Assembly: GCA_016926875.1 (NCBI GenBank)
Contig: JAFGNU010000069.1
Span: forward strand, 1-64,000
From: Anaerolineae bacterium
Lineage (GTDB): Bacteria; Chloroflexota; Anaerolineae; Aggregatilineales; Aggregatilineaceae
Direction of reading: 5' to 3'
DNA: 64,000 bases
Part shown: positions 10,193-50,383 of the stretch, piece by piece
How positions within the stretch are numbered: the first letter of the stretch is position 1
Layout: the number at the start of each line of letters is the position of its first letter
Made by a program: the position numbers and the translations under genes
Notes under the pieces: model-generated
Database searches by the model: none
Told to the model about the DNA's origin: nothing
What the model saw: the letters and a program-made list of their open reading frames with translations, nothing else

Positions 10193-11101
10193 CTACCACC
10201 CGCGCTTGCCAAGAATTATCTGGTCTGGTCCTACATTGATGCCCACCATTGCTTCACCCAGTCCGCGGCTGACATCGGCAATAATCTGCGGATCGTTGAA
10301 GTGCGTCGTTGCTTCAACAATGGCTTTCGCACGCCGGGCCGGATCACCGCTCTTGAAGATACCCGATCCGACAAAGACGCCGTCTACGCCAAGCTGCATC
10401 ATCAACGCCGCATCGGCAGGCGTGGCGATGCCACCCGCCGCGAAATTCACCACCGGCATACGGCCCAATTCGGCAGTTTCCTTGACCAGTTCATACGGCG
10501 CGCCGATCTCCTTAGCATAGGTCATCCACTCGTCGGGACGCATCGTCTGCAAGCGGCGAATGTCGCCCAGCACAGCGCGCGCGTGGCGCACCGCCTCGAC
10601 TACGTCGCCCGTTCCGGCTTCGCCTTTGGTGCGGATCATGGCCGCGCCCTCGCCAATGCGGCGCAGCGCTTCGCCCAGGTTGCGGCAGCCACATACAAAC
10701 GGCACATTGAACGGGTGCTTGTCGATGTGATACTGCTCGTCGGCAGGCGTCAGGACTTCGCTTTCGTCAATGTAGTCCACGCCAAGTGCTTCCAAGACCT
10801 GCGCTTCGACAAAGTGTCCGATGCGGCATTTTGCCATGACAGGGATGGTAACCGCCTCGATGATCGATTGGATCAGGTCCGGATCGCTCATCCGGGCCAC
10901 CCCGCCCTGCGCACGGATGTCCGCCGGGACGCGCTCCAGTGCCATGACGGCAACAGCGCCCGCCTCTTCCGCGATCTGGGCGTGTTCGGGCGTGACGACA
11001 TCCATAATCACGCCGCCCTTCAGCATTTGAGCCAACCCGCGTTTGAGGGTACCGGTGCCCTTCTGCGCGCCGTTGTCGGATGTGTTGGGATTATTGGTCA
11101 T
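10193..11101 (-). CDS. pdxS: Pyridoxal 5'-phosphate synthase lyase subunit PdxS
   Basis: [45 protein letters not shown]…GGVARMSDP…[16 protein letters not shown]…[18 protein letters not shown]. Confidence 0.97.
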
Positions 11102-11171
11102 CAGAATCTCTCCTTAGTTTTCGCGCGTGAGGTGCCCTCAAGGCGGAGTCACGTGCTTTAGAACCACGATG

Positions 11172-12497
11172 CTAATTCGCCTGAATCCAGGCGATAATAT
11201 CCTCGATGACAGCCTGACTGACATTGCCGGGCACGGCGTATTCCGCTGGGCTGCCGGGTTCCTGCCCGCTGACAAAATGATGATTCAGGGTAGGGTATGT
11301 GATCAACGTCACATCTTCACGCGTTGCCAGCCCGTCCTGCCAGCCTGCAAAATCGGTCATGGTCACCTGGTAATCGCGCTCGCCTTGCAGGATCAGTATG
11401 GGCACGGCGAGTGCCTGCGCGGTGCCGACCGGATCGTAGGCATTCAGATCGAGCCAGTATGCAGGCGGTGCACCCAGCAGGAGGGCGGCGGCTTCATCTT
11501 CGGGCTTCAAGTTCTGGATCGCCTCAACCTGCTGCGCGATGGCATCGCTCTGCACCTGGTCGTCGTCCGATAGATCGCCGTCCAGTCCCAACAGGTATGT
11601 CGTTTGTTCCAGGATCAGGTTTCCCAGGGGGCGGGAATTGCCTGCCAGGATGATGATCCCGGCAATGTCGGGAGCCTGCGCGGCAATGCGCGGCGCCAGG
11701 TAACCGCCCAGGCTGTGGCCCAACACATACACACGCGCCGGGTCGATACCGTCGATTGTTCGCAGCAAGTCCACCGCTGCCAGCGCGTCGTCGATGGTTT
11801 CATCTTGCACGGTCAGATCGGGCTGCGCGGCCATCTTTTCGCCGTAAACCAGGGTACGCTTATCGTAGCGCAGTACGGCGATCCCATTGGTTGCCAATCC
11901 CCAGGCCAGGTCTTGAAACGGCCTGTGTGGACCGAGCGCTTCGTTGCGATCCTGCGGTCCTGAACCATGCACCAGCACCACCGCCGGGAACGGACCGTCA
12001 CCTGTGGGCAGCGTCAGCGTGCCCGGCAGCGCCCAATCGTCGCCGCCAACGGTGACTTCCTGCTCGGTAAAAGCGCCTGTGTCAGCGTAGACGGGCGGCT
12101 GGTATTCCTGCGGCGTCTGCGAAAAGTACAGCCCGCCGACCTGCCCCGCGTCGTCAATTGACACCTGGACGTCAATCGACATCTTCTCAAATTGGAGCGT
12201 GATGATCACGACCGTGTATTGCCCGGCAGGCTGGGACCGGGTAGCCAACTGTTCTTGAAAGGGGCCTACCTGCGCCAGAAGCGATTCCCATGTCTGCTGG
12301 AGTGTCTCCGGCGGCAGCGCCACCTGAATAACCGCGTCGAAGTTTTCGACCGCACCGGCAAAGTCACCTGCCAGCAGATTCTCAACCACCGCCTGCGCGA
12401 TGGTTTCGGGGTCGCCGTTGTCCTGCGCCAGTGTCGTGAGCGGAGCCACCAGCAGCAGCACCAGAATCACTATTGTCCAGTATGAAGCGCGTTGCAT
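11172..12497 (-). CDS. Secreted/membrane-anchored alpha/beta hydrolase with N-terminal DUF3887-like domain
   Basis: Hydrophobic N-terminus MQRASYWTIVILVLLLVAPLTTLA; PAVVLVHGSGPQDRNE; VYVLGHSLGGYLAP; LILQGERDYQVT; LNHHFV. Start chosen by SD at 12497. Confidence 0.85.
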   Translation of the reverse strand: MQRASYWTIVILVLLLVAPLTTLAQDNGDPETIAQAVVENLLAGDFAGAVENFDAVIQVALPPETLQQTWESLLAQVGPFQEQLATRSQPAGQYTVVIITLQFEKMSIDVQVSIDDAGQVGGLYFSQTPQEYQPPVYADTGAFTEQEVTVGGDDWALPGTLTLPTGDGPFPAVVLVHGSGPQDRNEALGPHRPFQDLAWGLATNGIAVLRYDKRTLVYGEKMAAQPDLTVQDETIDDALAAVDLLRTIDGIDPARVYVLGHSLGGYLAPRIAAQAPDIAGIIILAGNSRPLGNLILEQTTYLLGLDGDLSDDDQVQSDAIAQQVEAIQNLKPEDEAAALLLGAPPAYWLDLNAYDPVGTAQALAVPILILQGERDYQVTMTDFAGWQDGLATREDVTLITYPTLNHHFVSGQEPGSPAEYAVPGNVSQAVIEDIIAWIQAN

Positions 12498-19912: not shown

Positions 19913-22900
19913 ATGAATTTCTTAGCTTATACCCAAATTCTATGGAGACGGAAGTGGGTTATCTTCCTCACAGCACTGGTAACGGTGGCTGTGGCTGCCG
20001 TTGGCAGCACGCTGGCGACACCCACTTACACAGCAACAGCTACGCTGCGGATTCTAACGTCCAGTTCCGGGATTGGCGCATACCAGGACTACGATGTCCA
20101 GTACGCCGAACGGCTGATGCGTACGTATGCTGAGATCGCAACCAGCGCCCCGGTCCTTGACGAGTTGAAGCAGACGCTCGATCTGGATTATACGCCTGAT
20201 GTACAAACGGAAGCCCTGGCATCGACCGAGTTGATGTCGATCACCGCGCAGGATGAAAACGCGGTCCGCGCAGCGCAGATCGCCAATACACTGTCTGAGA
20301 TTCTGATTGGGCGCAGTCAGAGTTTGTATACCGGGGATGCCCAGGAAACGACGGCGAGCTTGATCGCGCGCCTGGACCAGATTGAGCAGGAACTCAACGA
20401 TGCGCAGCTCCAGTATGAAAGTCTGTTGGACGAGCTGCCAGAGGGCGATGAGCGCATAGCGGCTCTCAGCCGATCTATCGAGATGCGAGAGCAGGTATAT
20501 GCCGCCCTGTTAACCCAGTACGAAGAAATTCGCACGGCAGATGCCATGCGCGCCAACGCGGTGTCGCTGATCGAACCGGCCAGCCCGCCCAAATCACCGT
20601 CCAGTCCTAACAAGCCGCTGAATATTGTGCTGGGGGCGCTGGTTGGATTGGCAGGCGGGACGGCGCTGGCGTTTCTCTTTGAAAACATGGATACCCGGTT
20701 GTACACGGTGGAGCAGATATGTGAAACGGCAGGACTGCCTGTCCTGGGACGTATTCCCAGCGCTAGGAGAACGTCAAGACCGGTGCTTTATGCCGATGGA
20801 TCGCTACAGGCCGAAGCTTTCCGGCGCCTGCGTACCAACCTCATCTCACACTCACGCGCTGACCCGCTGCACAAGCTGCTAATCGCCAGCGCCCTGCCCG
20901 GTGAAGGCAAATCGACTGTTGCCGCCAATCTTGCTGTGGCGATGGCGCAGACCGGCCAACGAGTAGTCGTGGTTGATGCCGACCTGCGGCGCCCGGTCCT
21001 GCATACCGTTTTTGATCTGCCCAACGAAACAGGGGTGAGCCTTGTTTTGCAGGGAGAAGCAGATTTATCGGACGCGGTGCAGGACAGCGGTATTCTCGAC
21101 GTGCACGTGCTATCCAGCGGCCCGCCGCTTCCTAACCCGGTAGAGATGCTCGATTCTGACGAGATGGCATCGCTGCTGGATCACCTGGCGGAGCAGTATG
21201 ATGTAGTACTGGTTGATACGCCCGCCTTTCTGCCAGTAACAGATGCAGCAGTGCTCGTGCCCAATGTGGATGGCGTGATGCTGGTTGCCGGGCGTACGCA
21301 GGCACGGAAGGAAACGGTGTCGGCGGCCAGTGACCAGTTGGATGATCTCGGCGCCAGGATGATAGGGCTGGTCGTGACCCGGAGCGATCACCACAGCGGC
21401 TACTACCACCACTACCACCCTGAGGACAAAGACAGCCGTGTAGCCAGAGCCAGATCGGACACTCCCGGCGCACTGCTGTCCCAGGCGCGCGCGGCGGTCC
21501 AGATGCCTCAGTTCTCACTCCGGAGGTGGGTTCGAGGCTTGAGTTTTTCCGGGGCGGCAGCGTGGCTTAAGCGCACAGCCCCGGCTGTTTTATCCGGGTG
21601 GGATGTGGCAGCAGTGATAGTACTGCTAGGTTGGATTTTAGCCTACGCTCATCTCCAGCAAGCCTACCAAAACTTCGTGGGGACCGATGCTGTCATCCAT
21701 TACTTCCCCGCCGCCCAGGCTGTACTGGATGGCGAGGGTTACAGGGCGTTTGAGGCTGATGTGCATCGCGGTCCCGGCTACCCGCTCATGCTGGCAGCAG
21801 CGTCGCACCTGCTGGATATTGAACTGTTCGCGGCCAGCGAGGTTGTCGGCGGGATCAACGCGGCGCTGTTTCTGCTGTTCACTTACCTGCTGATCCGTCG
21901 AGTCTTCAACGCGCCCACGGCGCTGGCAGGTGTGCTGGTGATCGTGGCAACCAATATGTTTGTCTGGAATGCCAATACGAGCAACACGGATGTGCCGTTT
22001 GCATGGCTGGCTGTGGCGTCTGTTTATTTTTTAATGCGCTGCGACCGGCCGGGCTATGTGGGTGCTGTATCGTCTGGTATCCTGGCCGGGTTGGCGCTGA
22101 TCGTGCGTTGGACCGGGTTAATCCTGCCGGTGTGCGGGCTGATCTGGATCGCGCTCGTTTCGGCACGAGCGCTCGATCTGCGCGGCAAGGCGCGGATCGT
22201 GGTTGTCTACCTGCTGGCATTCCTGGCAGCCTGCGGCCCCTGGTTGTACGCCAACTACCTGCTGCACGACAATCCGCTGTACAACCGCAATGCCACGAAT
22301 CTCGACCCGGAGATTTTCTCTAAACGCAGCGATAGTTTCGCCGATACAGTGATCGATTCGTTCAACGATAATCCACAGGATTTTGTCCGCAACGTATTTA
22401 ACAGACTGGTTACGGACTTCCCCGATACCATTCAGGGCTTCAACGATTACCCGCACCCTGGCGGCTGGGTGATGGCTGGCTTGTGCTGGGTGTTGATCCT
22501 GGTTGGGGGTGCGCTGCTGCTGATACGAATCAACCGGGTGCAAATCGGGTTTCTGCTGATTTCCGCTATCTGGTGGGGACCGATCGCGCTGACGCACTAC
22601 GAAGCGCGCTACTATATCCCCTTGCTGCCGCTCCTGGCAGCGCTGGGTGTGTACATTGTCACCGGAGACGTTTTGCCGGACATTAAGCTGAACCTTGGTG
22701 AGCGGAAGATCAGCTTATCGCGGGGGCACCTGCTGGACCGGCTGGCGGGATCGCGCCTGCCCGGCTGGCTGGCGGCGAATCCATCCGGCGCTGGCCTGAC
22801 CGGCGTGGTCGCTGCGTGCGTATTGGTATTTGCTGTCTCTTCAGCGTTGGATCGTGCCCAAAACAGCTTTGAGTGGACCGCCGAGCGTGACGAATTTTAT

Positions 22901-24556
22901 CACGAGCTGACCGGGGCTGTGCGCGAGCTGCCGGATGTTGAACACCTGCGCCCGATCGGGGTGCGGCAGTGGTCGCAAGCACAGTACTGGCTGCCTACTG
23001 AAGCAGGTGCTCCGACAGCGCTGCTGCCCAGGGAACAGAATATCGAGGCGGTTTTGCCGAATTTCTCATACGTGTTGTATGACCAGATCAATCCCGAAGA
23101 CAGCCTTGTAGATTGGTGGGATAATCCAGGGTTGGCGGCGCTGATGAATCCCCTGCGCGCGCCTGCCTCCCTGGAAATAGCCTATTTCAAGCCAACAGCC
23201 TACCGTGCCGTCCTGTACCGCGTGCTGGATGAGAACGTGGTCGCGAACATCGAAGCAATCACTACCACGTCTGCCGAACCGGAGGGCGCAGAAGCGCTGG
23301 TTATGGACAGAGACATTCAGACGTGGTGGTCCTCACGGCTGCGCAACGCGCCGAATGCCGACGAGTCGATCGTGTTTGACCTGGGCCGCCGGACGACCGT
23401 GAACCGCGTCTGGCTGCTGCCGCGTCCCGACGGCGCAGAATACCCCCTTGGTTTGCATATTGACGTTAGCGTCGACGGTGTGACATGGGAAGCTGTCGCG
23501 CGTGTCTGGGGCATCCCGACCCCACTGTGGCAAAGCCCGCAGGTATACACGTTCGACGACATCGAGGCGCGGTTTGTGCGGATCACGTCGCTTGAGCTGC
23601 CCTACAGCCCGGATCAAGACGGCTATGTGATGAGCTTTGCGGAAGCACGAATTAGCCGGGCGGTTGAGCAGTCGCCAGTCTACCCCGTCTTTGCTATCGA
23701 GCCTGCTGACGTGTATGTTGATGCGCTGGACAATGAACTGGTCGCCCGGATCGAGAACCAGGGCACTACACCGGGACAGATTGATGTGGCGTTTTACGAG
23801 GGCTGGTCGGCAGACAGTGCCGTGCTTCTGGCGACGGTCGAGTCGGAAGTAATTGGACCAGGCGAGACAGGCTTCGCGCGCCTGCCGTCTGACCGGTGGA
23901 GCATGCCCGACCCCGGCCAATGCCGACCGATCTGGGTCACATTGGAGCCGCCGTCCTATGCAAACCTGACACTGCGAACCTATGGTGTTACACTGCCGGA
24001 GCCGCAGCGCGTGTTTGCGGACCAGGTCTGTACACCTGAAGAAGTTGTAGTAGATGATTTTAGTTACCCAGACTCGCCGCTGGATCATAGCTGGCGCGTG
24101 CCGGAGGATCAGGTAGCCACCGGCGAGGTATTCACAACCTATGACTCGGAGATGGACCGGCGGGTGATGCAGATCAGCAGCGACGCAGAGGAAGGGTACA
24201 TGCTGTACAGCCATGCGGTTGAGTCGCAGACCTGGCAGGAACTGGCGCTGTGGATCAAATCGACCACCCGGTTTATCGTGTATGTGCGCGTGCGCGACAC
24301 GGATGGCGATTTTTACTATCTCCAGTATATGCCCTTTGCCCGTGAATCGTATGCTGACGAATACCCTGACGGCAATTACATCTACTATGCGTTAGGATCG
24401 CGCTTTGCCGATGGACGCTGGCACCGCATCCACCGCGATATTTACAAAGACTTTTACGTCAAAACAGGACTGGAAGTGGACCAAATCCAAGGTATATTCA
24501 TTCGGGCGTATGGTGATGTCCGGGTGACCGATCTCAGCCTGGCAATGCGCAGGTAA
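19913..24556 (+). CDS. Wzz - BY-kinase (CpsD/CapB-like) - GT-C/PMT-like membrane glycosyltransferase - discoidin (F5/8C) multidomain protein
   Basis: N-term YTQILWRRKWVIFLTALVTVAVAAVGSTLATPTYTATATLRI and EPASPPKSPSSPNKPLNIVLGALVGLAGGTALAFLFE (Wzz TM1/TM2); SALPGEGKSTVAANLAVAMAQTGQRVVVVDADLRRPVLH, YDVVLVDTPAF (BY-kinase Walker A/A'/B); SGYYHHYH; many TM segments with FVGTDAVIHYFPAAQAVLDGEGY…HRGPGYPLMLA; VMDRDIQTWWSSRL…ESIVFDLGRRTTVNRVWLLPRPDG…LHIDVSVDGVTWEAVARV…RFVRITS (discoidin). Confidence 0.85.
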   Translation: MNFLAYTQILWRRKWVIFLTALVTVAVAAVGSTLATPTYTATATLRILTSSSGIGAYQDYDVQYAERLMRTYAEIATSAPVLDELKQTLDLDYTPDVQTEALASTELMSITAQDENAVRAAQIANTLSEILIGRSQSLYTGDAQETTASLIARLDQIEQELNDAQLQYESLLDELPEGDERIAALSRSIEMREQVYAALLTQYEEIRTADAMRANAVSLIEPASPPKSPSSPNKPLNIVLGALVGLAGGTALAFLFENMDTRLYTVEQICETAGLPVLGRIPSARRTSRPVLYADGSLQAEAFRRLRTNLISHSRADPLHKLLIASALPGEGKSTVAANLAVAMAQTGQRVVVVDADLRRPVLHTVFDLPNETGVSLVLQGEADLSDAVQDSGILDVHVLSSGPPLPNPVEMLDSDEMASLLDHLAEQYDVVLVDTPAFLPVTDAAVLVPNVDGVMLVAGRTQARKETVSAASDQLDDLGARMIGLVVTRSDHHSGYYHHYHPEDKDSRVARARSDTPGALLSQARAAVQMPQFSLRRWVRGLSFSGAAAWLKRTAPAVLSGWDVAAVIVLLGWILAYAHLQQAYQNFVGTDAVIHYFPAAQAVLDGEGYRAFEADVHRGPGYPLMLAAASHLLDIELFAASEVVGGINAALFLLFTYLLIRRVFNAPTALAGVLVIVATNMFVWNANTSNTDVPFAWLAVASVYFLMRCDRPGYVGAVSSGILAGLALIVRWTGLILPVCGLIWIALVSARALDLRGKARIVVVYLLAFLAACGPWLYANYLLHDNPLYNRNATNLDPEIFSKRSDSFADTVIDSFNDNPQDFVRNVFNRLVTDFPDTIQGFNDYPHPGGWVMAGLCWVLILVGGALLLIRINRVQIGFLLISAIWWGPIALTHYEARYYIPLLPLLAALGVYIVTGDVLPDIKLNLGERKISLSRGHLLDRLAGSRLPGWLAANPSGAGLTGVVAACVLVFAVSSALDRAQNSFEWTAERDEFYHELTGAVRELPDVEHLRPIGVRQWSQAQYWLPTEAGAPTALLPREQNIEAVLPNFSYVLYDQINPEDSLVDWWDNPGLAALMNPLRAPASLEIAYFKPTAYRAVLYRVLDENVVANIEAITTTSAEPEGAEALVMDRDIQTWWSSRLRNAPNADESIVFDLGRRTTVNRVWLLPRPDGAEYPLGLHIDVSVDGVTWEAVARVWGIPTPLWQSPQVYTFDDIEARFVRITSLELPYSPDQDGYVMSFAEARISRAVEQSPVYPVFAIEPADVYVDALDNELVARIENQGTTPGQIDVAFYEGWSADSAVLLATVESEVIGPGETGFARLPSDRWSMPDPGQCRPIWVTLEPPSYANLTLRTYGVTLPEPQRVFADQVCTPEEVVVDDFSYPDSPLDHSWRVPEDQVATGEVFTTYDSEMDRRVMQISSDAEEGYMLYSHAVESQTWQELALWIKSTTRFIVYVRVRDTDGDFYYLQYMPFARESYADEYPDGNYIYYALGSRFADGRWHRIHRDIYKDFYVKTGLEVDQIQGIFIRAYGDVRVTDLSLAMRR

Positions 24557-24593: not shown

Positions 24594-26129
24594 ATGCTAT
24601 CCCAACGAGCGGGATTGTTTCCCAGCGTATACAACGGCTGGGTACAGTTAGCAGCAGCAGGCGGTGTTGGCCTGTTGTTGGGTGCTGCCTCTGTGGTGTT
24701 GTCGCCGCTGTGGGTCCTGCTAGCGCTGGCGGGCGGATTGATCGCGCTGGTGGCGCTCAAACGCCCGGAGCTGGCGCTGCTGGGTATCCTGGTTGCTACG
24801 TCGAGCATCATCTATGAGAATGAACTACCTCTGATCCCGATTGGAGTCGGCAGTCTGCACGTGCCTGATGCGATCCTGCTGGCTTTTTTAGGGCTGATAT
24901 TCGTACGTGCACTGGCGGAACCGGACTTTCGGATTATACACACACCGCTGGATACGCCGTTACTGGCGTTCTACGGCGTGACGCTGCTGTCCACGATCAT
25001 TGCGATCTTGCAGTCACGCCTGGAATTCACGCCCGCGCTGCGTACCATCCGGATCGTATCTTACTATCTGACGTTTTTTATCGTCACCAACCTGCTGCGC
25101 GACGAACGCCAGCTCAGCCTGCTGATCCGTGGCTTGATCATGCTGTCAATCGTCATCGCGGGGGCAATGGTCGCCCAGTTTGCGCTGGGTAAGTCCACGC
25201 CCATCATGCCGGGCCGTGTTGAGGAACTGGTCACGCAGGAAACCAGCTACGAGACGATCACCCGCATTCTGCCGCCGGGGCAGTCGCTGGTGCTGGTGGG
25301 ATTTGTCGTCACGACGGTCACACTGACGCTGGAGCGCGTCCGGGCGAGCAGTGTGATTCAGCTTGCACTGGTTGGGCTGTTAGGATTGGCGGTTGTGCTG
25401 ACATTCAACCGGAATTTTTGGGGAGTCGTGATCATCGCGTTGGCCCTGCTGGTCTGGCTGGCACGGAACCAGGATCGCCAGCGGTTGATGTCCTGGGGGA
25501 TGGTGATCGTATGCGCGCTGTTGGTGATCGGGCTGCTGCTCAGTCTCCATTCAGACTCGCAGACTAAAACACTGATCGATGCGTCCATCCAGCGTCTGAG
25601 CACGTTTACGGGTAGCCAGGTAACGGAAGACGAGAGCTTCCGCTGGCGGTATGTTGAGTACGACTACGCGATTCCGCAGATTACGGCACACCCGCTAATC
25701 GGGCTGGGCGCAGGGGCCAGGTATCGACCGCTGGATCGCAGGCTCGACCGCCCGGCACGAGATGACATCCCGGAGTTTGATGGTAGAGACTACGTGCACA
25801 ACGGGCACCTGTGGATTATGCTGCAATCCGGGCTGCTGGGCTACGGTTGCCTGGTGTGGTTGTCAGTGGTGTTTATCAGACGCGGGCTAAGGTATTGGCG
25901 TCAGGTATCTCATCGAGGGCTGCGGGGTGTGGTGTTAGCCTTCACGCTGGTGTACCTGGGCGTGTTGGTTGGCTGTATCGTCTCGCCTATGTTTATGCAG
26001 TGGTTCTGGACACCTGTATTTGGCCTGATGATGGGCGTTAACGAAACGGTGATCCGTCTGTTCGTACCGTACCCCGATCCGGCAGGCGCCAACGTAGCAA
26101 CGCGCCCGGCTCTCGGTTCAGCGGTTTGA
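24594..26129 (+). CDS. O-antigen ligase/Wzy-like polytopic membrane protein
   Basis: Multiple TM helices; FRWRYVEYDYAIPQITAHPLIGLGAGARY…YVHNGHLWIMLQSGLLGYGCLVWLSV typical of the O-antigen ligase family. Confidence 0.85.
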   Translation: MLSQRAGLFPSVYNGWVQLAAAGGVGLLLGAASVVLSPLWVLLALAGGLIALVALKRPELALLGILVATSSIIYENELPLIPIGVGSLHVPDAILLAFLGLIFVRALAEPDFRIIHTPLDTPLLAFYGVTLLSTIIAILQSRLEFTPALRTIRIVSYYLTFFIVTNLLRDERQLSLLIRGLIMLSIVIAGAMVAQFALGKSTPIMPGRVEELVTQETSYETITRILPPGQSLVLVGFVVTTVTLTLERVRASSVIQLALVGLLGLAVVLTFNRNFWGVVIIALALLVWLARNQDRQRLMSWGMVIVCALLVIGLLLSLHSDSQTKTLIDASIQRLSTFTGSQVTEDESFRWRYVEYDYAIPQITAHPLIGLGAGARYRPLDRRLDRPARDDIPEFDGRDYVHNGHLWIMLQSGLLGYGCLVWLSVVFIRRGLRYWRQVSHRGLRGVVLAFTLVYLGVLVGCIVSPMFMQWFWTPVFGLMMGVNETVIRLFVPYPDPAGANVATRPALGSAV

Positions 26130-26148: not shown

Positions 26149-27612
26149 TTGACCAACGGCAAAAGCCCTGATGTTTTACGCGGCATTATGTCTTTGGGGA
26201 GCGGCACCCTGCTGACACTCGTGTGCAGTTTCGTTAGCATCAGCATCTCTGCCAGGGCGCTTTCCGAGGATCAGTATGGCGTGTATTTCCTGCTGCTGAC
26301 GATTGTCTACCTGCTGGAGGTAATCTGCAACCTGGGGCTGCGCTCGTCGGCGGCCAAGTTCATTGCCAGCGCCCAAAACGATGACGAGCGGCAGGCTATT
26401 GTCAACAGTGTGTTGACTTTCCGGCTGCTGATGGCGGTAGGCGTGTCACTGCTGGCAGTCATCTGCAAACCACTGATCTTGCTGGCGTTTCCTTCCGACC
26501 TGTTATCCCGGCTGTTTTTATACGTACCCGTGTTGTTTTGCGTCCAGACTGCCGACCTGCTGCTTGACTGCCTGATGCAGGGTTTCCAGTTGTATCGCAA
26601 AATGGCGTTTGTCAAGGGAATGAGCGGGGTGCTGAATCTGGGGCTGGTAGTGTTGTTTTTGCTGCCTCTTGATCTCAGCCTGGAAGGACTGATCCTGGCG
26701 ACAGCGTTGTCGGTGGGGATCACGGCGCTGGTGCGTTACTGGATGATCCCAGGGCACAAAGCGCTCATGCTGGATACGCCTTTGCTGCGACGCATGATCC
26801 GGTTTGGACTGCCGCTGCAAAGCAACGATGTACTGACGTTCATCTCGCAGCGGTTGGACATACTGATCCTGGGCGCGATGGTCAGCCCGAAGTCGGTAGC
26901 ATACCTGGGCGTGGCGTCCAAGATACCGCAGAACTTGCAGCGCTTGTTCGCGTCATTGTATTCGGTGTATTTCCCGCACATGTCCAACCTGTTCGGTCAG
27001 GATCAGCGGGTCAAGGCAAAAAACGTGATGAACCGCTTTTTGCGCCTGACAGCTTTTATCACAGTCTCCGGCGCGTTGTTTACGGTGCTGTTCCAGGATG
27101 AGATCATCACCCTGGTCTTTTCTGAGAAATATCTGCCAAGCGCCCCGGCATTGGGCTTGCTCATGATCATTTTCACTCTCTCGGTGGCCAGCACGATCCT
27201 GGACCATACGCTGATTGCAGCGGATCACCCGGACTATCTGCCGGTGATCAGCCTGGCCGATACGGTGCCCAGCGTCATCGCCAACTTACTGCTGATCCCC
27301 CCGCTTGGGTTTATGGGCGCGGTCTATGCCAAGCTGATCGCCAACATCTGCACTAACCCGGTATCGGTGTGGGCGCTGCTCCGCGAGAAAATCAGCGTGC
27401 GGGTTGGCGCATACCTGAAGCCAATGCTGTTTATGGTGATCTGCCTGGGAATTTACTTTGGTTTGGGCTGGGATTCGCTGGTGATCAAAAGCGCCCTGCT
27501 GGCGTTGTTCGTGGTGCTGTCGATGGCGTTTTCGGTGATCACGCCTACCGACCTGCTGACCATGTTCGAAAACCTGAAGCCAGAGCGCAGACAGCCAGTT
27601 TTTGATAAGTGA
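26149..27612 (+). CDS. Oligosaccharide flippase (Wzx/MATE-like)
   Basis: RGIMSLGSGTLLTLVCSFVSISISARALSEDQYGVYFLLLTIVYLLEVICNLGLRSSAAKFI and ~12 TM pattern; TTG start assumed (alternative ATG at 26188). Confidence 0.88.
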   Translation: MTNGKSPDVLRGIMSLGSGTLLTLVCSFVSISISARALSEDQYGVYFLLLTIVYLLEVICNLGLRSSAAKFIASAQNDDERQAIVNSVLTFRLLMAVGVSLLAVICKPLILLAFPSDLLSRLFLYVPVLFCVQTADLLLDCLMQGFQLYRKMAFVKGMSGVLNLGLVVLFLLPLDLSLEGLILATALSVGITALVRYWMIPGHKALMLDTPLLRRMIRFGLPLQSNDVLTFISQRLDILILGAMVSPKSVAYLGVASKIPQNLQRLFASLYSVYFPHMSNLFGQDQRVKAKNVMNRFLRLTAFITVSGALFTVLFQDEIITLVFSEKYLPSAPALGLLMIIFTLSVASTILDHTLIAADHPDYLPVISLADTVPSVIANLLLIPPLGFMGAVYAKLIANICTNPVSVWALLREKISVRVGAYLKPMLFMVICLGIYFGLGWDSLVIKSALLALFVVLSMAFSVITPTDLLTMFENLKPERRQPVFDK

Positions 27613-28895
27613 TGGCCGACGTTACGGTATTGTTCGGTGGATTGGTAGTAGGGGCGGTGTCTTACCTGGTTTCGCGGCGGGCGGCGCAGACGTTTCGTGA
27701 TTTTGATTCGAAGCGCTACCCGGCGTTTGTTTACCGGGCCGTTAACCCCGGCGAGTTGGGTATCCCCGTGTTTACCTATCACTCCGTTGCGGGACCAGGT
27801 ACGCCCGATTCGGTTACGCCTGCCGCGTTTGAACGTCACATGTGCCACCTGTCCGCCAATGGGTATTACACTCTGAGCGCGGACGAGCTGCACGCTTATC
27901 TTGTGCGCGGCGAACCCGTGCCGCCCAAGTCGGTCGTCATCACCTTTGACGATGGGCGGGCAACGCTGTGGACGGCTGCCTACCCGATCCTGAAACGATA
28001 CGGCCTGCGCGCGGTGTGTTTCCTGGTGCCCGGTTTTATGTCCGAATCCGGCATGCGATCCGGGCCGGATGGTTCCACCGAAGCTGATCTGAGCGATGTT
28101 CCGGCCCTGACCTGGGACGAGGTGCGGGCGATGCACGACGATGGGCTGGTGGATTTCCAGTCACACACGCTGGATCACACGCGCATTTTCTACGGGCCGG
28201 AGATCAGGGACTTTATCCACCCGGCGTTTGTGTTCGGATACCATAACGTCAGTGTCCCGGTGATGCGTGTCCAGGGCACTGACCGGCTGCATGACAGGCC
28301 GCCGCTGGGGACACCGATCTACCGCAGCCAGCCGAGGATGAGTGCGGCGCGGCGCTTCTTTGATGATGAGGGTCTGCGGAATGCCTGCGTTGAATACGTC
28401 GCGGAACAGGGCGGCGCGGCGTTTTTCGCCCGGTCGGGCTGGCGCGCGGACCTGCGGCGTTATGTGGATGCATACCGCCGGGCGCATGATCTCAACGAGC
28501 GTTTCGAGACACCGGATGAACAGGCCGACGCAATCCAGCACAGCCTGGTCCGCAGCAAGCAGATCATCGAAGAACACCTGCCGGGGCATACGGTCCGGCA
28601 CCTGTGCTATCCCTGGCACCGTTACAGTGTATTGGCCGCCAGCCTGACGAGGGAAGCAGGCTATATCAGCGCCTTCATCGACATCAACCCGCAGAAACCG
28701 CGCCCGAACCCCAACAACCCGTACAGCGTGCAGCGCGTGCTGCCGCTCAACGAGGTTGGCGACGACCCATACCAGATCACGCGTATCGACGCCAGGGACG
28801 ACGTGGTTATGAGCCTGCCGGGTGCGGGGCGGCTGTCCTATGGGCGGCGCGTGGCGGCGCGCTTCCTGCGAGCACCGGGCTTCCTGAAGGACTGA
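27612..28895 (+). CDS. Polysaccharide deacetylase family protein (NodB domain)
   Basis: PVFTYHSVAG; KSVVITFDDGRATLWTAAYPILKRYGLRAVCFLVPGF; DFQSHTLDH; HLCYPWHRYS. Confidence 0.88.
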   Translation: MADVTVLFGGLVVGAVSYLVSRRAAQTFRDFDSKRYPAFVYRAVNPGELGIPVFTYHSVAGPGTPDSVTPAAFERHMCHLSANGYYTLSADELHAYLVRGEPVPPKSVVITFDDGRATLWTAAYPILKRYGLRAVCFLVPGFMSESGMRSGPDGSTEADLSDVPALTWDEVRAMHDDGLVDFQSHTLDHTRIFYGPEIRDFIHPAFVFGYHNVSVPVMRVQGTDRLHDRPPLGTPIYRSQPRMSAARRFFDDEGLRNACVEYVAEQGGAAFFARSGWRADLRRYVDAYRRAHDLNERFETPDEQADAIQHSLVRSKQIIEEHLPGHTVRHLCYPWHRYSVLAASLTREAGYISAFIDINPQKPRPNPNNPYSVQRVLPLNEVGDDPYQITRIDARDDVVMSLPGAGRLSYGRRVAARFLRAPGFLKD

Positions 28896-47797: not shown

Positions 47798-50383
47798 TTA
47801 ACGGTACGCTACCTGAAGTGTGATAGTATCGCCAGAACGATTGAACGACCAGGGAGCGTCATTGACCATCACCCGCTCAACCTGGGGAGCAGTAAGCGTG
47901 ATCTCGGACAGCAGATCGCCGGACACGGTAGCTGTCTCGTTATGGTATTGGACCTCGAACGAGGCAGTTGGAGTGAGTCCGCTGACCAGGTTGGTTGTTT
48001 CCTCTCCCACTTCAGCCAGAAACGTACCACCAAAAACAAATAGTTTTTGCAGTGCCCCATCCGGTCCTCGGCTCACGACGGCGACCCGGCCATCGAACAT
48101 ATAGGGACCGATCTGTGTCACCGCTGGTTGGGCATAGCTCAGCAAAATGTCGTCGACTCGCCCGCTGCCGTCATTCGACCGGACACGCACCGCGACCGCC
48201 TGCCCATTATCGCCCAGCATTTCAATGGCAGGCCGCTCATCCCAGGCAGAATCTTCTGTTGGATAGAGGATATGTATCAGCCGCACATTATCCACAGACG
48301 ATCCAGGGCGCGTATGGACAAAGGGATAGCCGTCATCGCTGCCTGTCACGGTTTCGAATGACTGCGGCGATACAACCGCCACGCCTAGTATCTGCCCATC
48401 ACCGGCATCCCCGCGTATCCAGTTGCCCTCAACCGAGACGCTTTCACTAAAATGGCTTACCCATTCAACCTGGTGGGGCGCGTTGGCGGCAAAAGCATCC
48501 AACATAACGAAATAATCCGGTCGAACGAAGACCACGTAGCGCGTAATATCTTGCACTCCTGCGACATCATAACGCTGTGTCGTGTCGGCGGCGAGATAGT
48601 CGAAACTTAGGCTGTCGGCAACTGCTTCGATGAAGCTGCTGCGGCCAACGTATTCTTCAGCGTACATGCCATAGTGGTTATCCGGCGGCCTGTATTGATC
48701 CTTACCATCGATCAACAGTGTATTGTGCAGCGCAGTCCCGGTTTTTGTTACGCCGACTGCCTCAGGGGCCAGCCAGTGCCCTGAATTGTAGAGGTAAAAG
48801 CTGTTCGCGTCGTTATGTTCATGGCCTATGTTGAGCGAGCAGCCTGTTTCGATACACGGCGGCTCCCAGGGATACAGGCCGCTGGTGAACGTATCGAAGG
48901 CAAATCGCCCGCCCAGTCCGCCTGTTTTTAGCCCGAAGACCAGCGCGTTCTCGTCCCAACCAGTACGCCAGATAACTGCTTCCAGGTCCTCAAACGTCCG
49001 CGCGCCGGGCAGATCGCGGGGCGACTGCGGGGTGATGGTCGGGTCGTAATACAGGAACTCGAATACGTACCACGGCGCGGCCCATACTTCTCGCAGCCTG
49101 CCATCGGCAGCAATGATCTCCCGTGCCATCCATTCGGCGCGCCCGTCGTCATACTCGCTGGCAACAAAGCGCAGCACGTTTTGGGGCTTGAATGAATTAC
49201 TGGATGACCACTGGAAGTCGCCGTAGGGGAGGGCTACCTGTGTGCTGCCCGGCAGGTAGTTGTAGATACGCCAATACACGTAGTTTTGCAGGTAGATGTG
49301 TGGGAGGATGTCGGTTTTCTGCAACTTCCTCAGGTTGGTCATAAAGGGCAGCGACATGGCTAAGAAGTAATTTTGATAGTGGGTGCTTTCGTGCCAGGTG
49401 CCATCCCTGATCCCGTTTAGAATATCCCGCCCGATGGATAGCTTGTTCCGGGCCTGGTCGATCCACGCCTGGGCATCAGAGGTCAGGATTTCGCAGCCCG
49501 CCGATTCGCTGACCACGTCCGAGCGAACCCACGTGCCATCTACCAACTGCCACCAGATGAAACCTTCGGCGTCGACCGTCTGCCCGCTGACTTCGGCGCT
49601 TTGCCCGGCTTGCAGCGTACCGGTGACATCATGCTCAATGCCCGGACCCGCGCGTTGGTTGACGTTGTTGTCGGCGCGAACCGTGCAGATTCCCGGTAGT
49701 TCTTCCTCTCCCCACAACGCCAGCCCGGCTGTTCCCAATGCGCTGTTAGCGATCCAGTAGTGATTTTGCAGATAGGATTTGACCCACCAGTTTGCCCACT
49801 CTGAATTAAACGGCTGCGAACTGGCTTCGTACATCCGTTGTGCCCAGATCGCCAGGCTCTGGCGCGCAACCTGCTGTTCCTCAGGCGTCAGGCGGTTATA
49901 GAGCCAGTCATATGCCAGTGCGCTGCCAGACAGCATGTGAGCGTGTCCCAGGCCGCGAAGATTGTCTGTATTCCACTGGGTCCAATTGGCAAAGGTCAGC
50001 AGGTATGTTTTAGCCAGATCGCAGATTTTGTCCTCGTTGGAGATCACACAGGCGAACGCCAGCGGGATGATCTGGTTGCCGTAGTTGACGTATGTTGATT
50101 CATCTGCGCCGACCGGAGTCGCCACAGGTGGCACAGTCCCGATAAGGGATGCCGCGTACTCATAGATCGGCGTCCAGATAGCTTGGTGTGTGGTAGCGGC
50201 CTGCGCTTGCAGGGTAGCAATCTGGCTCTCGTCAAAAAAGAGGCGCGGGTGAGTTCCATCAAACGCGCTGGTGTTTGGTATCACACTGCCGGGGGGAAAC
50301 ATGATTGATGCGATCAGAACACCAAGCAGCGCCCAGAAGATGATCAGCGAACGCGTAGTGAACCGGGTCTTGCTGATGAACAT
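47798..50383 (-). CDS. Heparinase II/III-like (polysaccharide lyase-type) protein with inserted bacterial SH3 domain
   Basis: N-terminal hydrophobic segment; HPRLFFDESQIATLQAQ; LGHAHMLSGSALAYDWLYNRLTPEEQQVARQSL; GHEHNDANSFYLYNSGHWLAPEAVG; SH3b-like CTVRADNNVNQRAGPGIEHDVTGTLQAGQSAEVSGQTVDAEGFIWWQLVDGTWVRSDVV. Confidence 0.85.
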   Translation of the reverse strand: MFISKTRFTTRSLIIFWALLGVLIASIMFPPGSVIPNTSAFDGTHPRLFFDESQIATLQAQAATTHQAIWTPIYEYAASLIGTVPPVATPVGADESTYVNYGNQIIPLAFACVISNEDKICDLAKTYLLTFANWTQWNTDNLRGLGHAHMLSGSALAYDWLYNRLTPEEQQVARQSLAIWAQRMYEASSQPFNSEWANWWVKSYLQNHYWIANSALGTAGLALWGEEELPGICTVRADNNVNQRAGPGIEHDVTGTLQAGQSAEVSGQTVDAEGFIWWQLVDGTWVRSDVVSESAGCEILTSDAQAWIDQARNKLSIGRDILNGIRDGTWHESTHYQNYFLAMSLPFMTNLRKLQKTDILPHIYLQNYVYWRIYNYLPGSTQVALPYGDFQWSSSNSFKPQNVLRFVASEYDDGRAEWMAREIIAADGRLREVWAAPWYVFEFLYYDPTITPQSPRDLPGARTFEDLEAVIWRTGWDENALVFGLKTGGLGGRFAFDTFTSGLYPWEPPCIETGCSLNIGHEHNDANSFYLYNSGHWLAPEAVGVTKTGTALHNTLLIDGKDQYRPPDNHYGMYAEEYVGRSSFIEAVADSLSFDYLAADTTQRYDVAGVQDITRYVVFVRPDYFVMLDAFAANAPHQVEWVSHFSESVSVEGNWIRGDAGDGQILGVAVVSPQSFETVTGSDDGYPFVHTRPGSSVDNVRLIHILYPTEDSAWDERPAIEMLGDNGQAVAVRVRSNDGSGRVDDILLSYAQPAVTQIGPYMFDGRVAVVSRGPDGALQKLFVFGGTFLAEVGEETTNLVSGLTPTASFEVQYHNETATVSGDLLSEITLTAPQVERVMVNDAPWSFNRSGDTITLQVAYR

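Follow-up and report, generated by a model that had tools for sequence, protein, structure and literature searches.

Control of chain length and glycosylation after polymerisation are regarded as distinct steps. In BY-kinases, the Tyr tail is autophosphorylated in trans, and the ratchet model of Wzc relies on this tail being free. Wzc forms octamers regulated by their own Tyr tail; the rings assemble and disassemble with Tyr-tail phosphorylation and presumably surround Wzy (PMC11986026). Also known are GT-C enzymes whose C-terminal CBM binds the polysaccharide acceptor (PMC3044687, PMC11127046): the CBM of EmbC binds the acceptor and matters for activity (PMC3044687), and GT136 acts on the finished polymer, which is modified outside the membrane after polymerisation, with a CBM that binds the polymer and was non-essential in that study (PMC11127046).

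We describe here an ORF, located in a 64,000-nucleotide stretch of Anaerolineae DNA (the window), in which these two types of protein occur in one open frame. Wzc and CapAB, as PCP-2 BY-kinases, share with this ORF the Wzz-GNVR-kinase order, the Walker motifs and adjoining wzy and wzx genes, and the ORF has a Tyr cluster that may correspond to their Tyr-rich tail; however, their known members stop after the Tyr tail, whereas the ORF runs on for another ~1045 residues. Likewise, EmbC, AftD and GT136 ORF12 of Citrobacter youngae resemble the ORF in that a beta-rich, extracytoplasmic module comes after a GT-C core of many helices, but these proteins stand alone, and the module in the ORF comprises an F5/8C domain plus another sandwich.

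Results

The ORF spans 19913..24556 on the + strand (as do all its features and the cluster genes below) and constitutes, in the assembly sequence, a single open frame of 1547 residues; its source is one draft Chloroflexota genome, a MAG that is 86% complete. All named-domain matches in this ORF are well beyond chance. It begins with a Wzz chain-length domain (residues 4-88; 19922..20176; PF02706, 39.2 bits) that contains TM1 (residues 16-34), followed by a GNVR domain running into TM2 (residues 184-256; 20462..20680; PF13807, 44.1 bits), both above the Pfam cut-off, with hydropathic helices 16-34 and 238-256 flanking the extracytoplasmic region of the Wzz part. The BY-kinase catalytic domain (residues 301-501; 20813..21415; TIGR01007, 168 bits vs. 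a cut-off of 108) carries, by motif reading, Walker A (GEGKST, residues 330-335; 20900-20917), Walker A' (VVVVDADLRRP, residues 351-361; 20963-20995) and Walker B (VVLVDTP, residues 431-437; 21203-21223), and this half matched CapAB and Wzc structures in the PDB, down to 1e-41. A Tyr cluster (GYYHHYH, residues 496-502; 21398..21418), which is a putative autophosphorylation tail as judged by its motif and its same position in kinase relatives, is internal in the ORF and not C-terminal.

Beyond a linker, a membrane core of about 11 TM helices (residues 562-980; 21596..22852) was delineated by PF13231, Foldseek and hydropathy, with the PMT_2 profile (PF13231) matching residues 622-779 at 33.6 bits vs. 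a cut-off of 26.1. A phmmer search of the PDB with the GT-C half gave no match. An AlphaFold model of this half was confident in the membrane core only (mostly pLDDT 75-95), and the 29 best PDB matches to it in Foldseek were all GT-C enzymes or GT-C-containing complexes, including AglB, ArnT, OST, PMT and ALG12 (best E 9e-6). Large low-confidence parts of the model keep the TM-scores of these matches low, and we therefore claim the fold class alone; at that level, the modelled membrane part is of GT-C fold. Its first extracytoplasmic loop (residues 583-637; 21659..21823), placed by hydropathy and homolog alignment, harbors D592 and D616 as putative catalytic residues; 14 of 18 homologs have Asp in the alignment column of D616, and D592 lies near, yet outside, the main conserved Asp column.

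The remainder of the ORF includes an F5/8 type C (discoidin) domain (residues 1116-1228; 23258..23596; PF00754, 47.1 bits vs. a cut-off of 28.2) and, toward the C-terminus, a beta-sandwich resembling that of D-glucuronyl C5-epimerase (residues 1417-1514; 24161..24454; PF21174, 31.2 bits vs. a cut-off of 27 with the C-terminal end scanned alone). We surmise from these profiles that both modules may be sugar-binding and lectin-like. A single-sequence fold of the C-terminal 164 residues was poor (pLDDT 44), and the C-terminal 297 residues had no relative in 250 other genomes of the phylum. Hydropathy over the whole ORF gave 2 + 11 = 13 helices; most of the loops assigned to the inside are rich in K/R, and the one behind the first GT-C helix is acidic, which predicts an inside position for the kinase and an outside one for the acidic loop, the discoidin domain and the terminal sandwich.

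These results agree with a sequence-only reading of this DNA, which had proposed an uninterrupted 1547-aa ORF (we found no internal stop), a complete BY-kinase with Walker A, A' and B, many TM helices of GT-C/PMT character with an acidic first loop, and a discoidin domain followed by a further C-terminal region, which we find to include the PF21174-like sandwich; the identities and order of the domains stand as well, with Wzz, GNVR, TIGR01007, PMT_2 and F5/8C all above their cut-offs. The interpretation offered there is supported in part; the term phosphorelay is unfit, as BY-kinases autophosphorylate the Tyr tail in trans.

The gene directly following the ORF encodes a wzy-like polymerase (Wzy_C/O-antigen ligase; 24594..26129; PF04932), succeeded by a wzx-like flippase (26149..27612; PF13440), a polysaccharide deacetylase (27609..28895; PF01522), which is the best conserved neighbor (64% to L054), and GT4 genes. 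No dedicated polyprenyl-phosphate-sugar synthase was identified in the neighborhood of the fusion gene. Three orthologous clusters were found, namely L076/L054 (Anaerolineae Zod_Metabat.474), L077/L081 (J064) and L078 (CFX15); L076 and L078 keep the order kinase-wzy-wzx-deacetylase-GT4-GT4, and L077 keeps kinase-wzy-wzx-deacetylase. Given this conserved order, we take the fusion ORF to be the kinase gene within a polysaccharide cluster of the Wzx/Wzy type. In all three orthologous clusters, a stand-alone kinase of 448-542 aa adjoins wzy directly, without GT-C in between; the likeliest origin of the GT-C module is therefore a gain at the kinase/wzy boundary in the lineage of the window. Elsewhere in the window, an ORF of 861 aa at 47798-50383 (-) has heparinase II/III-like and SH3 domains, and a similar 810-aa ORF is found just upstream of the kinase at L077:2203-4635. 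The genome carrying the fusion also has a second, split system, with separate BY-kinase and Wzz-like ORFs at L052:9241-9906 and 10701-11402 (-).

The fusion is a singleton, present in one genome only among those searched. The architecture is absent among 101 relatives and 154 genomes of the order, and kinase relatives in 100 related genomes matched the query up to about residue 543 only and never in the GT-C half. Among the better-scoring BY-kinases listed for 301 genomes of the phylum and 396 of the class, of which the longest open frames were the ones read, none has the fusion architecture; the longest other open frame among those listed was 977 for the phylum and 695 for the class. The GT-C half gave weak matches only in the 153 other genomes of the order (best 33 bits) and partial, somewhat better ones elsewhere in the phylum (best 59 bits), none of them fused to a kinase. 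No relative emerged from a degenerate-pattern scan of genome contigs with the full protein, and tblastn of plasmids with the GT-C/discoidin half yielded no match. The view, already put forward in the sequence-only reading, that no characterised protein is known to have this domain order is in keeping with the genomes searched, and the titles and abstract openings of the literature searched point to no paper on such a fusion. Two long kinase ORFs were rejected as fusions: that of G011, listed as 1208, reads 794 aa, is cut by the contig end and has no GT-C, while that of L066 has its excess at the N-terminus and likewise no GT-C. Helix-hairpin-helix-like sequence was observed in the BY-kinases of two relatives, as a C-terminal stretch in that of G022 (L054:9611-11239; DUF4332/HHH_5, weak) and, by alignment, inserted before Walker A in that of G001 (L046:9340-11250).

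As a singleton, the ORF is compatible with a lineage-specific fusion as well as with an indel artefact. In the latter case, which is the main rival to the fusion reading, two adjacent genes, a BY-kinase ending right after the Tyr cluster and a GT-C/discoidin gene starting from near an ATG at 21503, would have been merged in the assembly through an indel of one base, be it a sequencing error or a real frameshift. The linker between kinase and GT-C (residues 503-561; 21419..21595) contains this ATG in frame, and a TGA is situated one frame away at 21421-21423, so that the gain or loss of one base there would terminate the kinase immediately after its Tyr cluster. The kinases of all relatives end near the junction, and by codon statistics residues 505-567 have scores typical of DNA read in a wrong frame (quantile 0.0004-0.004 among coding windows); however, this low score loses weight because residues 269-316, which are certain kinase sequence, score equally low. 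The two-gene arrangement is further weakened by the linker being open in the sole frame that joins both parts, which, by our estimate, chance alone would produce well under half of the time, and by the finding of no promoter- or terminator-like site in it. The linker had no Pfam match; in frame, its residues 508-540 show a weak likeness to the tail of the syntenic G022 kinase (shuffle p 0.001 to 0.004), which also speaks against two genes, but none to the related domain of G001. The sequence-only reading had envisaged homologs always split at this point as an argument against the fusion; each relative's kinase does end there, but the relatives have no GT-C gene at that place. On balance, we consider two genes joined by an indel to be unlikely, albeit a serious contender, and the ORF is probably made as one chain.

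Discussion

We propose that C-terminal GT-C and lectin-like modules were acquired by a co-polymerase/BY-kinase of PCP-2 type belonging to a Wzx/Wzy exopolysaccharide cluster, giving rise to a lineage-specific fusion with a tethered extracytoplasmic GT-C that decorates or caps the nascent polymer. By analogy with Wzc and with GT-C/CBM enzymes, the Wzz and kinase domains would assemble into the usual ring enclosing Wzy and set chain length by phosphorylating in trans the Tyr cluster, here an internal segment with the ~60-aa linker behind it. Outside the membrane, the GT-C part would draw a sugar from a polyprenyl-phosphate donor and attach it to, or use it to cap, the polymer leaving Wzy, while the discoidin and beta-sandwich modules would hold that polymer. 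This explanation is supported by the single open frame, by every named domain scoring over its curated cut-off, by the GT-C fold matches, the predicted topology and the conserved cluster order, by the linker having no promoter- or terminator-like site, and by the precedents of the extended kinases L067 and L068 and of the GT-C/CBM enzymes; counted against it are the singleton status, the non-coding-like linker, the indel of one base that would part the genes, the internal position of the Tyr tail, the search of the neighborhood that identified no dedicated polyprenyl-phosphate-sugar synthase, and F5/8C and beta-sandwich assignments that fall short of proving sugar binding, leaving us about evenly poised as to whether the proposal in full is right.

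Alternatively, a true fusion by stop-codon loss may have left the GT-C acting on another acceptor, such as a glycoprotein or cell-wall glycan, with the kinase link reflecting incidental co-expression or localisation. The GT-C part has distant relatives only, and the genome of the window (G000, a 3.7 Mb draft) contains about 40 PMT_2 (GT-C) matches, implying that GT-Cs serve many purposes in this organism; nevertheless, the location in a Wzx/Wzy cluster and the carbohydrate-binding-like modules favor the polymer as acceptor, and we regard another acceptor as improbable. A GT-C half devoid of catalytic activity that acts as an anchor, its discoidin and beta-sandwich modules keeping exported polymer close to the co-polymerase, would fit the offset of D592 and the predicted outside position of these modules, but D616, the acidic first loop and the PMT_2 and GT-C features of the core are retained, making this very improbable.

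Returning to the tethered GT-C, the coupling of kinase state to glycosylation, as raised in the sequence-only reading, is a plausible hypothesis. A further and rather doubtful extension is that the kinase ring carries extracytoplasmic glycosyltransferases, such that assembly and disassembly driven by Tyr phosphorylation would gate decoration or capping as well as length. If the fusion is true, it would show in nature that chain-length control and post-polymerisation glycosylation can share one site, and could tie polymer growth to polymer decoration; it would also provide a ready-made construct for asking whether BY-kinase cycling controls GT-C activity.

The tethering idea has a precedent within the phylum, as in two Chloroflexota BY-kinases (L067:2701-5352 and L068:3605-6358) the Tyr cluster is followed by a third membrane helix and an extracytoplasmic domain. 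Like the fusion, they extend beyond the Tyr cluster via a membrane helix into an outside domain; it is a weaker precedent for the architecture, with one helix and no enzyme domain detected vs. an 11-helix GT-C in the fusion. From the other side, PMT_2/GT39-like Chloroflexota proteins (L024-L038, L059-L064) have a homologous GT-C core (about 19-27% identity) but no kinase attached, the L024-type proteins having an N-terminal region of ~270 aa in place of the kinase. In L024-L038, which belong to other families of the phylum, this region ahead of the core appears beta-rich by eye. An additional long ORF of 1497 aa in the genome of the window (L094:2901-7394) joins PMT_2 to an NHL-repeat region.
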